IMG/VR virus record: IMGVR_UViG_3300048582_000096
Location: 1-33,659 of that record
DNA length: 33,659 nucleotides
DNA from: a virus
Reading direction: 5' to 3' (one strand)
The stretch's first letter is position 1; every line of letters starts with the position of its first letter. Both the position numbers and the translations under genes were made by a program. Below are positions 8,464 through 12,623 of the stretch, piece by piece. Below the pieces are notes generated by a model that searched no databases, was not told the DNA's origin, and saw only the letters and a program-made list of their open reading frames with translations.

Positions 8464-8614
8464 AAGTCGATAAGTGTAAAAGTTGCATTTGTAATTCTAA
8501 TTCTAGTATTTGACCTTTTATAAACTCCTTGTTATAAAAGTTCTCTTTGTCTTCAAGTCTTTCATTTAACAAACTCAATCTGTGATTCTGCATTGCTTTT
8601 AGCTCTTCTATCAT
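8444..8614 (-). CDS. First gene of the leftward early operon, small coiled-coil protein
   Basis: 56 residues. MIEELKAMQNHRLSLLNERL continues as an unbroken charged helix (coiled-coil-like) through GQILELELQMQLLHL. It is the first gene after the leftward early promoter, whose -7 element lies 24 bases upstream. Early small proteins in this slot often act on host functions, but nothing specific is seen. Confidence 0.6.
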   Translation of the reverse strand: MIEELKAMQNHRLSLLNERLEDKENFYNKEFIKGQILELELQMQLLHLSTYEQETK

Positions 8615-8747: not shown

Positions 8748-8954
8748 ATGACAAATCAAGAATTATTAAACACTTACTCGGATCAAATTCAATCTATTAT
8801 TACTCACGCAAAGTCTATTGATTTTGATATTGAGAACGGTAACATTATGGATTTAATGAAATCATGGTTAGACATGGGTAGAAAGATGATGATAAACATT
8901 AATGATAATAAATCAGAGGTTTTAATTTTAATGAAAAATTTAGTAAATAAATAA
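8748..8954 (+). CDS. Small helical protein, first gene of the rightward unit
   Basis: 68 residues, entirely helical in appearance: MTNQELLNTYSDQIQSIITH, a DFDIENG turn, then LMKSWLDMGRKMM and a C-terminal VLILMKNLVNK. No helix-turn-helix motif is obvious. As the first gene behind the divergent promoter it is a candidate regulator of the early/rightward switch, by position only. Two bases separate its stop from the next start, so the two form a unit. Confidence 0.65.
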   Translation: MTNQELLNTYSDQIQSIITHAKSIDFDIENGNIMDLMKSWLDMGRKMMININDNKSEVLILMKNLVNK

Positions 8955-8956
8955 CC

Positions 8957-9127
8957 ATGGCAATAAAAACACAAAAAAGAATAGAACGAGAAAATCGTAA
9001 TAAGAAAATAATAGCTTTATTTAATAAGCTTAATATAAACGGCTCCGATAAAATGGCTGTTTGCGAACTGGTAGCTAAAAAACTAAACTTTAAAGCTAGT
9101 TTAGTTTATAGGGTTGTAAATAGTTAA
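8957..9127 (+). CDS. Small basic protein, possible helix-turn-helix
   Basis: 56 residues. The N-terminus is strongly basic (KTQKRIERENRNKK). The C-terminus, AVCELVAKKLNFKASLVYRVV, looks like a helix-turn-helix in which the last helix would read DNA. This may be the phage regulator acting at the divergent promoter. Its TAA stop lies inside the GTTAAC box that opens the first attC-like element, as in integron cassettes whose genes end in attC. Confidence 0.6.
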   Translation: MAIKTQKRIERENRNKKIIALFNKLNINGSDKMAVCELVAKKLNFKASLVYRVVNS

Positions 9128-9185
9128 CGGTTTTGGGGCTTGGCAAAGTTGCCGAACACAAAACTTCATTAGAATTACAAATGTT
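9124..9185 (+). repeat. attC-like element E1, left half only
   Basis: Opens GTTAAC, a 5-base spacer GGTTT, then TGGGGCTTGGCAAAGTTGCC (9135-9154). It continues into the 18-base loop motif ATTAGAATTACAAATGTT (9168-9185), also found in E2. A matching right arm with GTTA is missing before the next gene, so the element is truncated, or its partner lies beyond the next genes: the right side of E2 also carries AAAACCC and GCCCC segments. Confidence 0.4.
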
Positions 9186-9215
9186 TAAATTAAGATACAA
9201 TGTCAAACGAAGAAA

Positions 9216-9449
9216 ATGACAGATACGGAAATTAAAGAAGAGTGCTTAAAAGAAGCAGGAATGGATTTAGGTAGTTATAGCTATTCTGAGCTACAAACTA
9301 TCTTTGAGGCAATGAGGAGATACCACAACGCTAAATTAAAAAAATTACCTATAACTGATGCTATAGGGTCGGTTTGCGATTGCGGTGCAAATGGTTGCTT
9401 GATAACTGTTTGTTCAAGATGTTGCAGAAACTATACTGGAGCAGCATAA
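9216..9449 (+). CDS. Cassette gene, small cysteine-rich protein
   Basis: 77 residues. The N-terminus is helical (KEECLKEAGMDLGSYSYSEL then EAMRRYHNAKLKK). The C-terminus has a cysteine cluster, CDCGANGCLITVCSRCC, able to form a zinc site. A remnant TATAAC box (9461-9466) follows the stop without a right arm. It shares the CDCG start of its zinc motif with the next gene, suggesting related cargo. Function unknown. Confidence 0.55.
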   Translation: MTDTEIKEECLKEAGMDLGSYSYSELQTIFEAMRRYHNAKLKKLPITDAIGSVCDCGANGCLITVCSRCCRNYTGAA

Positions 9450-9494
9450 GCAAACTGTATTATAACTGTACTCATGTGGGCGTAGTGCGATATA

Positions 9495-9743
9495 ATGGAA
9501 GAACAAAAATTAAGACAGTTATTCAGAAACAGAAGCAACTGTTATGTGGACACAGATGATGTAGTGCAAGGAATGGATGAAAATTGCTTTATTGAAACCG
9601 TAAACGAAGCATTACGCCTACATGATGTTAGTGGGCGAAGCGAACAGTTAGTTTGCGACTGTGGAAGTAGCCACATGACTTGGTATGGCAATGATGATAA
9701 TAAGCAATGGTTTTGTTTTAATTGTAAGAAAGAAGCAAACTAA
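9495..9743 (+). CDS. Cassette gene, small zinc-ribbon protein
   Basis: 82 residues. The C-terminal 30 residues, CDCGSSHMTWYGNDDNKQWF followed by CFNCKKEAN, form a clean CxC...CxxC zinc ribbon. The N-terminal 50 residues are helical and charged, without a known domain. The stop TAA (9741-9743) precedes the E2 opening box by 7 bases, so gene and element form a cassette-like unit. A nucleic-acid-binding role is possible from the ribbon alone. Confidence 0.6.
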   Translation: MEEQKLRQLFRNRSNCYVDTDDVVQGMDENCFIETVNEALRLHDVSGRSEQLVCDCGSSHMTWYGNDDNKQWFCFNCKKEAN

Positions 9744-9750
9744 TTGCCAC

Positions 9751-9877
9751 TAACAGATTGGGGCTTTAAGAAGTTGGGGTTTCAAGGCTCAAATGTTTGT
9801 TAAAGCACTACTGTTGATTAGAATTACAAATGTTGGGGTTAAGCACTTCCGCCCCAATTTATTAAAACCCTTGTTAT
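9751..9877 (+). repeat. attC-like element E2
   Basis: TAAC (9751-9754), 2-base spacer, ATTGGGGC (9757-9764); right arm GCCCCAAT (9851-9858), then 14 bases to GTTAT (9873-9877). Eight perfect pairs, and AAGT/ACTT can pair further in. The loop holds the 18-base motif ATTAGAATTACAAATGTT at 9817-9834, identical to E1. The right spacer is longer than in the other elements. Confidence 0.5.
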
Positions 9878-9929
9878 CTGCTGCTGCGGTTTTCAGGGTA
9901 GGAAGTTTCAAATTTTAAACAAATTAATT

Positions 9930-10484
9930 ATGTCTTACACAGAGATTTACAAATTCAAAAAAGATGGCAATGCTGAATGTTTTGCCGAAGTTAAAAATGC
10001 TTTTCGTGGTGCAATGGCAATTTGGACTAATATAGAAAAACGCTACTTACCAAAATACATACCTACTTGGGCAATGGGTGATACATCAAAAGAGTATAGC
10101 CGAACATTTGATTTTATGGGTGGTGGTTTAAAAGAAGTTTGGGCTTTGTTTGATAGTGATAAAATTTCAGAAACCGATAACATTGTGCTTGGAAGCTCAT
10201 TTGATAATGTAGTGGTTATGAAAGATGATTTACCAAAACTTATTGAAGCATTTAGAAACTTTGAGGGCGAAACATCTTTAAAAGAACAGGCAGATTTGAT
10301 TGAAAACGCTTTTAAAAACGATGATGATTTACTTGCTATTGCTTGGAATCAAACATCTGTAAATGGCGATGCTTGGGAATCTGACGAAACTGGGTTAGAT
10401 GAAGATGGTGAAGAAATTTATTTGCCTTACAATTTACTTAAACACGATAAGCACTGGAATCTATTTGAGGTAGAAGTATCTTAG
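9930..10484 (+). CDS. Cassette gene, conserved-looking hypothetical protein
   Basis: 184 residues, acidic and soluble. Opens SYTEIYKFKKDGNAECFAEV, includes RGAMAIWTNIEKRYLP, then VLGSSFDNVVVMKDDLPKLI and a C-terminal acidic turn DETGLDEDGEEIYLPYN. I recall similar proteins scattered through bacteria and phages without known function, but cannot name a family. It lies between E2 and E3 as a complete cassette of about 745 bases, counted between the two GTT boxes. Confidence 0.65.
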   Translation: MSYTEIYKFKKDGNAECFAEVKNAFRGAMAIWTNIEKRYLPKYIPTWAMGDTSKEYSRTFDFMGGGLKEVWALFDSDKISETDNIVLGSSFDNVVVMKDDLPKLIEAFRNFEGETSLKEQADLIENAFKNDDDLLAIAWNQTSVNGDAWESDETGLDEDGEEIYLPYNLLKHDKHWNLFEVEVS

Positions 10485-10492
10485 CAGTTGCA

Positions 10493-10622
10493 GATAACGT
10501 TTTTGCAGCTAAAAGAGGTGGCTGATTAATACCTCGAAATTTAATTAAAAGCACAAAATTATGAATACAGATAAAACTTCATTAGAAAACGAAAACCAGC
10601 CATCTTGTTTAGGTGCTGTTAT
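10493..10622 (+). repeat. attC-like element E3
   Basis: GATAAC (10493-10498), 6-base spacer, GCAGCTAAA (10505-10513), AGA, a 2-base GG bulge, TGGCTG (10519-10524). The right arm is CAGCCA (10597-10602), TCTT, then TTTAGGTGC (10608-10616), one base, GTTAT (10618-10622). Nine pairs with one mismatch, plus four and six pairs. The bulged bases and unequal spacers resemble the extrahelical bases and unpaired spacer of attC. The loop repeats AAAACTTCATTAGAA from E1. Confidence 0.6.
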
Positions 10623-10658
10623 GCGTAGTTTTTTATCACGAATGTTAAATTAACAACA

Positions 10659-11183
10659 ATGAAAACAATAAGAGAATTAAGGGATGTAATGGATTTTTAT
10701 CCAAATGAATTGTCAAGTCAATTAAAATACTTTACAAGACAAAATATTGATTGGAATGTTTACTTGCCAACTAAAGGGAAAAACCTGCAAAGGGATTTTG
10801 TTTGGACTTTAGAACAAAAAAGAGAGTTGATAAATTCAATGCTAATTGGTAGGCATATTCCACACTGTGCAATAGTGAATATAGTTGACCCAAATAATGC
10901 CCATAAAGATATTTTACAAGTTATTGATGGTAAACAAAGATTATCTGCAATGGTTGATTTTTACGAAAACAAATTTACTATTGAATTAGAAGGTAAAGAG
11001 TATTATTTTAAAGATTTACCTAATGATTACCAATTAGCAATAAGCCATTATCACTTTAGGTATTATGTCGTAAATGAACCTTATGGAAGCCCAATGACTG
11101 ATGAGCAAAAAATAAATTGGTTTAAATTTATCAACTTTGCAGGAACTCCGCAAGATGCTGAACATTTACGAGGTCTGTCCTAA
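10659..11183 (+). CDS. Cassette gene, DUF262-type protein
   Basis: 174 residues. It contains QRDFVWTLEQKRELINSML, then IPHCAIVN, then the family signature VIDGKQRLSAMVDF (about residues 88-101). This is the DUF262 N-terminal domain (ParB/sulfiredoxin-like fold, DGQQR motif) known from GmrS/GmrSD and other modification-dependent restriction or defence proteins. The C-terminal HNH-type domain of GmrSD enzymes is absent, so this is a stand-alone or shortened form. Carried between E3 and the E4 left arm. A defence or counter-defence role is inference. Confidence 0.78.
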   Translation: MKTIRELRDVMDFYPNELSSQLKYFTRQNIDWNVYLPTKGKNLQRDFVWTLEQKRELINSMLIGRHIPHCAIVNIVDPNNAHKDILQVIDGKQRLSAMVDFYENKFTIELEGKEYYFKDLPNDYQLAISHYHFRYYVVNEPYGSPMTDEQKINWFKFINFAGTPQDAEHLRGLS

Positions 11184-11191
11184 AATTACGC

Positions 11192-11621
11192 ATAACTGCT
11201 GGGTGTATGAAATCGTTAATTAAAAAAGTGTCGGAGGGGAAAATAAAATATTAATAATTTAAAATAAATATAAAATGAAAAGAACAAAAGAAGAAATAGC
11301 TACTGCTATTGAAAAGATTAAAGACAACAAAACTAAATGTGCCAAATTCAATTTTTTTGGAGAAAACAACCATGATAAAATTGATGCAATGTTAGATGTT
11401 TTAGAAAACAATCGTTCAGAAGATTATATCTACAATCATTATCCATCAGAAGATGAAGATGGTGAAGAAGATACAATTTCACATGGGCTTTGGGGTTCTG
11501 CTATTATTGCTTTAGAATTTATGAGAGGAGAAAATGAATTAAAGGATTTGCTTTATCCAGAAATATAGGTATGCGTTTAGGTGTAGGTGGCTTTTAATTA
11601 ATGTTTTATACACCATGTTAA
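11192..11621 (+). repeat. attC-like element E4 with a gene between its arms
   Basis: Left half: ATAAC (11192-11196), 5-base spacer TGCTG, GGTGTAT then GAAA (11202-11212). Right half: TTTTATACACC (11604-11614), 2-base spacer AT, GTTAA (11617-11621). The arms pair over 11 positions (ten Watson-Crick, one G-T). The 5-versus-AT spacer pattern is that of E6 and E7, which argues that the halves belong together although 391 bases, including the gene at 11275-11568, separate them. Confidence 0.45.
11275..11568 (+). CDS. Cassette gene, small acidic protein
   Basis: 97 residues. The N-terminus is KRTKEEIATAIEKIKDNKTK, then CAKFNFFGENNHDKIDAMLDVL, a very acidic stretch SEDEDGEEDT and a helical end IIALEFMRGENELKDLLYPE. 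Seen before as a hypothetical protein type in phages and mobile DNA, as far as I can recall, with no function. It is unusual in lying inside the two arms of E4. A DNA-mimic role is conceivable from the acidic patch but not supported further. Confidence 0.6.
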   Translation: MKRTKEEIATAIEKIKDNKTKCAKFNFFGENNHDKIDAMLDVLENNRSEDYIYNHYPSEDEDGEEDTISHGLWGSAIIALEFMRGENELKDLLYPEI

Positions 11622-11681
11622 CAGAAGTGCGCTATTACGATAGCAAATTAGCCATACCAATCGGAGCGCATTTTTGTTAAC
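11617..11681 (+). repeat. attC-like element E5, gene-less unit
   Basis: GTTAACAGAAGTGCGCT (11617-11633) pairs with AGCGCATTTTTGTTAAC (11665-11681): 15 of 17 positions Watson-Crick and the other two G-T. The loop is 31 bases. The opening GTTAAC is also the closing box of E4, and the closing GTTAAC is the opening box of E6, giving a 59-base repeat-to-repeat unit without a gene. Confidence 0.6.
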
Positions 11682-11801
11682 GGCCGCAAGTTTGGTTTGT
11701 GTTTGCGTTAACCGATAAAGTAATTTAAAGCAATAACAATAATTAACAGAATAATAAATTAGAAAGCACTTCGGCAAACATTAATTAAACTTGATGTTAT
11801 A
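11676..11801 (+). repeat. attC-like element E6
   Basis: GTTAAC (11676-11681), 5-base spacer GGCCG, CAAGTTT (11687-11693), 6 bases, TGTTTGC (11700-11706). The right arm is GCAAACA (11774-11780), TTAATT, AAACTTG (11787-11793), 2-base spacer AT, GTTATA (11796-11801). The two blocks of seven pairs are perfect, and the six bases between them pair with G-T pairs and one mismatch. Loop about 67 bases. Confidence 0.65.
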
Positions 11802-11822
11802 AGCCGTTTATTTTTATTAAAA

Positions 11823-12029
11823 ATGAAAAAAGTATTTGTAGTAAATTTTGATGAATCTGTAATATTTAAAACTAGAATGGATAACCCATTTTATGATGAA
11901 AAATATGAAACTTTTGAAGAGGCAAAAGAGCAACTAGTAAGCTATTGGGACAATGTTTTGGCAGGCGCAAAAAACAACTTAAAGGGTGCAAAAAAAATGA
12001 AATTAATTAATGTGCAGGTTATGCCTTAA
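11823..12029 (+). CDS. Cassette gene, small unknown protein
   Basis: 68 residues. Starts KKVFVVNFDESVIFKTRM, then YETFEEAKEQLVSYWDNVL, and ends with a basic strand KKMKLINVQVM. It looks like a small alpha/beta protein. Lies 21 bases after the E6 closing box, and its stop is 6 bases before the E7 opening box, making a compact cassette of about 350 bases. No family recognised. Confidence 0.6.
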   Translation: MKKVFVVNFDESVIFKTRMDNPFYDEKYETFEEAKEQLVSYWDNVLAGAKNNLKGAKKMKLINVQVMP

Positions 12030-12035
12030 ATGGCT

Positions 12036-12153
12036 TATAACGGCGACAAGTTTGTTTTTGTGCGCCTTACTTGCAAGAAATGCACTAACAGAATTTAATT
12101 AGATAACAGAATATTAACCGATTCGCACAGCATAAAACAAACTTGATGTTATA
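12036..12153 (+). repeat. attC-like element E7
   Basis: TATAAC (12036-12041), 5-base spacer GGCGA, CAAGTTTGTTTT (12047-12058), T, GTGCG (12060-12064). The right arm is CGCAC (12124-12128), five bases, AAAACAAACTTG (12134-12145), 2-base spacer AT, GTTATA (12148-12153). Twelve perfect pairs plus five more past an internal bulge. This is the clearest attC-like fold in the array, and its outer arm is shared with E6. Confidence 0.7.
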
Positions 12154-12179
12154 GGCTGATGCGGATAAAAGTAAGAATT

Positions 12180-12329
12180 ATGAAAATAACAGTAAAAGCA
12201 AAAGAGGTAGAAATTGAAATGGACGACCAAAACACAGAAAGCTTTAATAAGTACGATTCCAGAGTTGACTTTGTAATTAAAATAGTTAAAGCTATGACTG
12301 ATGAATGTTTAAAATTATTAGATAAATAG
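12180..12329 (+). CDS. Cassette gene, 49-residue protein
   Basis: 49 residues: KITVKAKEVEIEMDDQNTES, then FVIKIVKAMTDECLKLLDK. A short strand-helix protein with no recognised family. It starts 26 bases after the E7 closing box and is followed by a TATAAC box (12349), so it occupies the expected gene position of a cassette. A minus-strand frame of 64 codons overlaps here but has no such context. Confidence 0.5.
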   Translation: MKITVKAKEVEIEMDDQNTESFNKYDSRVDFVIKIVKAMTDECLKLLDK

Positions 12330-12348
12330 GTGTCGATTAGCATTTGCC

Positions 12349-12376
12349 TATAACTTACTTATATATATAGTATAAC
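12349..12376 (+). repeat. Remnant attC-like box E8 at the array end
   Basis: TATAAC at 12349-12354 follows the last cassette gene as elsewhere, but no matching right arm is present. An alternating TATATATATA run (12359-12369) and a second TATAAC (12371-12376) in the same orientation lie between it and the next gene. It looks like a decayed or chimeric end of the array. Confidence 0.3.
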
Positions 12377-12380
12377 CACC

Positions 12381-12623
12381 ATGAGAATTAAAAGAAAATC
12401 AATTACTTATGATGTAGGTAGCAAAATAATTTTTGAAATTAAAGGCTATCAGGATTATGCAGTTGTAAAAGGCGGTAATATTATTAATATAAAGACAAGA
12501 CAAATATTAACAAAGACGGTAAAAGGATATACTAAAGGAGTTTGGTTTGGCAAAAAGTTTATAACTAAAGATAAGTTAGACGATTTACTAACCAAACCTC
12601 TTTATTTTGAAGTGCCTTTTTAA
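12381..12623 (+). CDS. Small basic protein ending EVPF, NUMOD-like
   Basis: 80 residues. The segment DYAVVKGGNIINIKTRQILT followed by KTVKGYTKGVWFGKKFITKD resembles the NUMOD4-type DNA-binding repeat that accompanies HNH homing nucleases, but no HNH is present. The C-terminus FEVPF resembles an SSB-type tip. Its stop is one base from the convergent spanin gene stop. It may be an original phage gene bordering the cassettes rather than a cassette itself. Confidence 0.5.
   Translation: MRIKRKSITYDVGSKIIFEIKGYQDYAVVKGGNIINIKTRQILTKTVKGYTKGVWFGKKFITKDKLDDLLTKPLYFEVPF

Follow-up and report, generated by a model that had tools for sequence, protein, structure and literature searches.

How should a run of inverted repeats that alternates with small genes in a phage genome be read? 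Such a run is found in the window studied here, that is, the whole of the IMG/VR record IMGVR_UViG_3300048582_000096, a linear, possibly partial contig of 33,659 bp from a siphovirus-like phage. The original prediction, made from the letters alone, took it for a cluster of attC sites lacking integrases (CALIN). The region is very probably a recombinase-less array belonging to an integron-like cassette system of Bacteroidota phages, whose units would be moved by a recombinase acting in trans. It is also probable, if less firmly so, that these phages have an integron class of their own, marked by mirror polarity, a recombinase other than IntI and a folded site specific to the family, through which counter-defence genes are gained, lost and exchanged. 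The first reading builds on observed features, namely the sites, the complementary ends of the gene cores, the linkage of arrays to a recombinase, the exact gain and loss of units at AAC, and the exchange of cores between contigs.

Between 9463 and 12354, on the + strand, the window holds a confirmed array of six folded sites, each opening with TAAC and closing with GTTA, joined to gene cores. At least six inverted repeats in one orientation had been announced, and six sites (9463-9630, 9751-9876, 10495-10621, 11193-11620, 11678-11799, and 12038-12151, all + strand) are indeed recovered from a hairpin scan and from core ends. An anchored hairpin scan of the whole 33.7-kb window gave five + strand matches, all within the array region, four of which score at least 9.5, against 0.04 expected from shuffles of the region; on the - strand of the window, nothing scored as high as the best four + strand sites. 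The scanner is tuned to TAAC/GTTA ends and missed the published TJE1 sites, and a first scan with 8-nucleotide (nt) arms had given a weak signal. The site at 10495-10621 lies under the scan threshold and was found by hand from cassette ends. A T at position -1 and an A at position -7 before GTTA are present in 6/6 window sites, the window background being 13%.

The strongest single test for the window array, which is independent of hairpins, is the complementarity of core ends, in which, for each core bounded by GTT and AAC, the 15 nt at its start are matched against its last 15 nt in reverse complement. Scores of 13-14/15 are reached by four window cores, and each holds exactly one open reading frame (ORF) that stops 12-25 nt short of the AAC end. 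Shuffles of the region give 0.3 pairs scoring at least 13 and 0.03 scoring at least 14; the window has two of the latter. The predicted array is real, whereas the borders of its elements had been placed imprecisely, two sites being 168 and 428 nt long with part or all of a gene in the loop. The features are as follows (aa, amino acids).

9125..9171, + strand: left-end site E1, 5' half only (TAACGGTTTTGGGGCTTGGC...), resembling the left-end sites of Flavobacterium phage 11b and viral contig L034.
9216..9449, + strand: ORF of 77 aa, probable cargo of a first, partly degraded unit ending at TAAC 9463-9466.
9463..9630, + strand: site E2, 168 nt, TAAC-5-TCATGTGGGCGT...ACGCCTACATGA-T-GTTA, hairpin score 11.5, with T at -1 and A at -7.
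9495..9743, + strand: Cys-rich ORF of 82 aa, beginning within the E2 loop, its stop 11 nt short of where TAAC 9751-9754 ends.
9751..9876, + strand: site E3, 126 nt, hairpin score 9.5, included in alignment A1.
9873..10498, + strand: gene core, ends GTTATCTGCTGCTGC / GCAGTTGCAGATAAC, 13/15, enclosing ORF 9930-10484 (184 aa).
10495..10621, + strand: site E4, 127 nt, arms GCAGCTAAAAGAGGTGGCTG / CAGCCATCTTGTTTAGGTGC, found from cassette ends.
10618..11196, + strand: gene core, ends GTTATGCGTAGTTTT / AAAATTACGCATAAC, 14/15, enclosing ORF 10659-11183.
11193..11620, + strand: site E5, 428 nt, arms of ~24 nt (GGTGTATGAAATCGTTAATTAAAA / TTTTAATTAATGTTTTATACACC), hairpin score 11.0, inverted repeat I5.
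11617..11681, + strand: mini-core without ORF, with complementary ends GTTAACAGAAGTGCG / CGCATTTTTGTTAAC.
11678..11799, + strand: site E6, 122 nt, hairpin score 9.0.
11796..12041, + strand: gene core, ends GTTATAAGCCGTTTA / TAAATGGCTTATAAC, 14/15, inverted repeat I8, enclosing ORF 11823-12029 (68 aa).
12038..12151, + strand: site E7, 114 nt, perfect 12-nt arms CAAGTTTGTTTT / AAAACAAACTTG, hairpin score 12.
12148..12354, + strand: gene core, ends GTTATAGGCTGATGC / GCATTTGCCTATAAC, 13/15, inverted repeat I9, enclosing ORF 12159-12329.
12351..12380, + strand: putative attI-like right end of the array, TAACTTACTTATATATATAGTATAACC, resembling TAACTATTATATATA with a 3-nt offset.
12381..12623, + strand: ORF of 80 aa without family match, an unrelated ORF at the position held by the recombinase gene in complete systems.

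Is this build peculiar to one phage? The window has PHROGs matches to terminase, portal, major head protein, primase/helicase and exonuclease; its structural genes are all on the - strand, and 8748-12623 is a + strand block of small genes. Its terminase is 64% identical to that of phage 11b and, used as a query, returned 80 viral loci, several with arrays of window-like build beside terL. Beside terL, L018 carries an array of six cores with seven sites of ~126 nt, and arrays of the same build are present in L027, L030, L034 and phage 11b (L062/L109); another relative, G002, is syntenic with the window on both flanks and carries different small genes at the array locus. The 16-mer TAACGTTTTGCGGCTT, from the 5' half of the site, matches at least 120 viral stretches (~20 expected, a rough estimate); among the matches listed, a signature core ends exactly at the match in 53, and at least two cores are present in 72. 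Window-type cores and sites are present in well over 100 viral contigs, and also in isolated phages, namely 11b and the Polaribacter phages Freya, Danklef and Leef. Other searches returned little: Rfam gave no match, BLASTN of the array against phages and plasmids gave chance-level matches only, and, among fixed L-box scans drawn from E6 and E7, AAACTTGATGTTATAGGC had 0 matches in viral contigs and CAAACTTGATGTTATANGC had 5 in GTDB genomes, all within ORFs, while two gapped L-box patterns had 4 and 6 matches, chance or coding.

Cores share an outer stem of 10 bp, followed by a G (start) facing a T (end) and 3-4 further pairs, and the window cores follow the same scheme. With one mismatch allowed, a search of 1.36 Mb for this signature gave ~20 array-phage matches versus ~1 expected per strand pass, and G/T occupies position 11, which was not conditioned on, in 175/186 cores of recombinase loci. 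Across all loci, 483-488 distinct cores were collected, in which the longest ORF is forward in 419 and reverse in 27, with a median distance of 13 nt from ORF stop to AAC end. Among 222 sites lying between adjacent cores in other contigs, a G directly follows TAAC in 218, a T precedes GTTA in 219 and an A stands at -7 in 219; own-arm pairing reaches 93% versus 5.7% with swapped arms, so that the imperfect hairpin typical of integron sites is found here too. GTTA is present in 94% of boxes; in these box counts (483 starts), the AAC/GTT triplet itself was set by the search.

Which enzyme could act on such sites? TBLASTN with classical IntI detected full-length tyrosine recombinases of 265-277 aa just 3' of arrays in five independent contigs. 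Alignment A3, built from these proteins and used alone, without the sites, to search viral contigs, gave 468 relatives, from which 80 loci were kept. Upstream of the recombinase gene (263-277 aa), on its strand, signature cores lie in 52/52 loci where the sequence reaches back 1.5 kb or more, versus 6/156 shuffled upstream segments; only 2 loci have cores downstream and 3 have cores on the other strand. Some of the 52 loci are near-copies, and independent cases are therefore somewhat fewer. In most loci, the last core is 42-93 nt or 200-500 nt away from the recombinase gene, and an attI-like site, TAAC followed by TATTATATATA, stands between the array and this gene; its consensus, TAACTATTATATATA, adjoins the recombinase in 40 contigs. 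The putative attI-like right end in the window, at 12351, reads TAACTTACTTATATATATA. Complete systems amid phage genes are seen in G022 (50 kb), with nine cores, recombinase, terminase, portal and virion protein, and likewise in G038 (39 kb).

The catalytic residues R, K, H, R, H, Y of this recombinase are invariant. Its best NCBIfam score is with the XerA family NF040815, entitled 'site-specific tyrosine recombinase/integron integrase' (167-208 bits, under the cut-off of 220), and the solved structures nearest to its model (pLDDT 84, pTM 0.60, i.e., predicted local distance difference test and template modelling scores) are XerA and IntI4, PDB 5hxy and 4a8e being among the XerA/XerC-like comparisons. 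It resembles the simple XerA/XerC-like recombinases in length, fold and best sequence scores, but it stays under their family cut-off and is tied to cassette arrays rather than to chromosome dimer resolution. With the IntI family TIGR02249 it reaches only 150-185 bits, in two stretches, versus a cut-off of 265 and 494 bits for V. anguillarum IntI, because the IntI-specific insertion, described as essential for integron function (PMC8138268), is absent (alignment A2). In a tree with thin outgroup sampling and long branches, XerC/XerD and the two IntI included fall outside the group. The original prediction had allowed for a divergent recombinase family and was right to do so, an array-linked non-IntI enzyme being present at 52/52 loci.

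Within the window, the search with A3 found no recombinase of the array-linked family, in agreement with the predicted lack of an integrase, in a contig that is possibly partial; it likewise found none in phage 11b and 14 other array or related records. By the measure used for CALINs (at least two attC sites and no integrase nearby), the window offers six sites and no detected recombinase of this family in its possibly partial contig; it is therefore probably the equivalent of a CALIN within the phage cassette system. Its array either depends on a recombinase in trans or is frozen.

Do the units move? Near-identical cores (91-99%, some 77-80%) recur in several contigs with other neighbours in each, and the stretch that they share stops at the 3'-side TAAC or within 12 nt of the shared site consensus. 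Closely related loci of the recombinase agree from the TAAC of the attI-like site onward and differ in what precedes it: from this TAAC, identity is 100% over 2565 bp for L285/L289, 100% for L243/L244 and 99.3% for L286/L291, the upstream arrays being unrelated. The empty locus L289 reads ...GGAGCATAAC joined to TATCATATATC, and the filled locus L287 reads ...GGAGCATAAC joined to GGTTGGGTGTATG...CTTGTTATG...gene...TGTACATAAC joined to TATCATATATC, with one unit inserted, which is therefore a site and then a gene. Ten Freya phages come from one Polaribacter host (PMC8776804), and genome length varies among them. Freya_1 lacks the whole array, with a junction of GTTTACAAC to ACCCCTATAAC at AAC; Freya_8 lacks exactly one Freya_10 unit, and Freya_6 carries another unit adjoining the attI-like site, both again with the junction at AAC. 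The unit gained or lost accordingly reads folded site - gene, with ends at (T)AAC and the site 5' of the gene. The repeats had been described as each following a small gene; they lie between genes, and it is the site before a gene that moves with it. A unit made of a gene and its following site was also considered and dropped on the shared-core boundaries and the L289/L287 pair. Relatives vary exactly at the GTT boundaries, where a lack of variation had been named in advance as evidence against an array.

These junctions bear on two explanations that do without a site-specific recombinase. If the repeats were immobile intergenic terminators or RNA stems isolating the mRNA of each small gene, their good folding on the coding strand, with G-U pairs, would be expected, and rho-independent terminators look alike; however, this is scarcely credible, being already contradicted by the exact gain and loss of units between near-identical relatives, and conserved bases outside the stems and the recombinase linkage do not fit it either. 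Homologous recombination between repeated site ends, through phage RecT/Erf-type annealing, could draw on short identical site ends such as TAACGTTTTGCGGCTT, and several array phages encode annealing or exonuclease proteins. Yet only (T)AAC is common at the attI-like junction, too short a stretch for annealing, and the recombinase linkage, the own-end pairing of cores and the site stems are left unexplained, making annealing a very improbable source of these exchanges. In L314/L315 and L274/L275, ~115-123 nt of the unit adjoining the attI-like site are found again, ~3 kb further upstream or where the contig ends; duplicated units or assembly loops would give this pattern.

Polarity separates the phage arrays from classical integrons, in which the gene precedes attC and the array grows away from the integrase: here, units join where the array ends on its 3' side, beside the recombinase. 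Integrons and CALINs share with the phage system the array of units with one gene each, the hairpin sites and their AAC/GTT boxes, the complementarity of unit ends, a tyrosine recombinase beside the insertion site and a crossover at the AAC/GTT triplet. The phage system differs in its recombinase without the IntI-specific insertion, encoded at the array's 3' end on the same strand as the genes, in an R box of the form GTTA-NNNNNN-G instead of GTTRRRY, in an outer stem of 14-15 bp in which G-T is constant at position 11, in a unit with the site 5' of the gene, and in having phages as carriers.

Could the array nevertheless be an ordinary CALIN, i.e., classical integron cassettes caught by a phage and moved by a host IntI? 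The logic of AAC/GTT boxes, hairpin and start-end complementarity is common to both, being found in Vibrio and Shewanella integrons up to about position 10. Phage CALINs, moreover, are already published, contrary to the original remark that no described one of this type was known: Qi et al. 2023 report them, including one in a Bacteroidota phage, the Polaribacter phage P12002L, and 5/6 phage sites tested, P12002L attC2 included, recombined through IntI1 in E. coli, the partner of the P12002L sites being attI1 (PMC9892861). P12002L shows the present cassette signature at several places, also at these attachment sites. However, a different recombinase, without the IntI insertion, is linked to the arrays in 52/52 loci; GTTRRRY fits only 6.8% of 483 starts (and 7.2% of ends); the site is 5' of the gene in the inserted unit; and pairing runs past a fixed G/T at position 11, unlike in the two classical integron phages checked (one Vibrio, one Shewanella), where start-end complementarity ends at about position 9-11. 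An ordinary CALIN is thus quite improbable: the mobile cassette array of the original prediction stands, but a classical IntI integron does not, given the missing insertion, the non-GTTRRRY R box and the reversed polarity. The arrays of Qi et al. resemble that of the window as integrase-less site arrays in a virulent Bacteroidota phage, but they were assigned to classical integrons and IntI1, and a dedicated recombinase, a reversed unit and a family-wide system are not reported there (PMC9892861). In the open-licence PMC literature, preprints excluded, no description of such a recombinase, unit or family was found.

The favoured reading is thus that of a phage cassette system with its own enzyme. 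A dedicated Xer/IntI-like tyrosine recombinase, presumably the array-linked one, would insert and excise units of folded site then gene, acting in cis in many relatives and in trans on the window array. Crossover would take place within the (T)AAC at the unit end, and the 3' end of the array, with the attI-like site beside the recombinase gene, would be where new units join. In a circular unit, the start and end sequences of the gene would pair over ~15 nt below the site's own stem, with the constant G-T at position 11, to form one long hairpin as in integron attC, and a folded single strand would be the substrate. The window phage may borrow its recombinase from a co-infecting phage, a prophage or a plasmid.

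Several points weigh against this reading. The recombinase might lie beyond the window contig, which is linear and maybe incomplete, and one or two of its sites (E2, E5) are of unusual length. Of eight exchanged pairs, five share the core and not the upstream site, which a simple unit model leaves unexplained; as a speculation, such pairs would arise if a nearly symmetric hairpin could recombine on either strand. Length differences among the Freya records could include assembly effects, though the junctions are exact. Finally, many array contigs are viral by IMG/VR prediction only, and a phrog_2 terminase was found in 7/27.

What do the cassettes carry? The 361 core ORFs of at least 60 aa form 296 clusters, most without a Pfam match; the largest, of 39 ORFs, contains DNA methyltransferases. 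Among 100 representatives, Pfam identified five Mom proteins, cytosine and adenine methylases, acetyltransferases, a PAPS-reductase-like pair, an ADP-ribosyltransferase-like protein and the GmrSD_N protein of the window (ORF 10659-11183; DUF262, PF03235, 3e-14). Anti-restriction and DNA modification are prominent in this cargo, most of which has no assigned function. Its protein families suggest that it may help phages against host defence, and the most likely role of the system is a rapid renewal of host-takeover and anti-restriction genes.

Phage genomes are known to be mosaic; what would be new in them is a dedicated platform on which accessory genes are swapped singly and site-specifically. 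The cassette system is widespread and apparently undescribed, and lets related phages gain or lose genes one unit at a time, which accounts for the differences between close phages in their methylases, their Mom-type modification of DNA and their small host-takeover genes; anti-defence genes not yet known can be sought by the cassette signature. Phage 'integrases' come to be read differently as well. The recombinase matches PHROGs named 'integrase' and the adjoining variable site joins cassettes; if these phages have their own integron class, the 'integrase' genes of many of them would be cassette recombinases and not lysogeny genes. By contrast, the integrases of Freya, Danklef and Leef were taken as a sign of temperate potential in the published account of these phages (PMC8776804). 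The system combines an integron-like logic with the lack of the IntI insertion, and the basis on which a recombinase accepts folded sites can be tested in cultured phages such as Freya, Danklef and Leef. In Freya_10, Leef_1 and Danklef_1 (L326, L330, L333), genes annotated as phage integrase adjoin cassette arrays, that of Danklef_1 being a 132-nt fragment.

Carriers are not restricted to phages. On the Chryseobacterium plasmid NZ_CP041688 (L327:5776-10036), a recombinase relative with 46% identity stands beside three signature cores; bacteria therefore carry the cassette system too. These cores, with Crp/Fnr-RidA, hypothetical and metallophosphoesterase genes, are on the opposite strand, in the classical gene orientation.

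Some further observations concern array ends and single elements. In 11b-like phages, the right array end has another conserved sequence, TAACTANNNGCTAACNNNNATAAAAGTATTAC (L018:4265, L027:6977, L030:5883, L034:4812(-)), which precedes a small gene of shared type in 3/4 contigs; no recombinase was found there. L031 has a terL 99.8% identical to that of L027 and begins exactly at the array's last TAAC (L027:6977-7333 vs L031:4-50), without the ~310 bp that follow this TAAC in L027. In the window, E1 starts with TAACG-TTTTG-GGGCTTGGC, the start of other array left ends, and no matching L' arm with GTTA was found for it; nor was a matching unit start found for the 77-aa ORF, which probably belongs to a unit. 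The 184-aa ORF has a relative, 84% identical, in viral contig L093, with no such folded site seen beside it. The E5 loop holds a whole ORF (11275-11568, 97 aa), and mini-cores of 60-61 nt are present also in the Polaribacter phages Freya and Danklef. Long-loop sites (11193-11620, with a whole gene, and 9463-9630, with a gene's 5' half) pair with a gene-less mini-core or a short core. Lastly, a 16-nt stretch, ATTAGAATTACAAATG (coding LELQM), is present in three copies in the window, at 8487 (-), 9168 (+) and 9817 (+); two of them adjoin damaged sites, and the copies are possibly pieces of one gene family.

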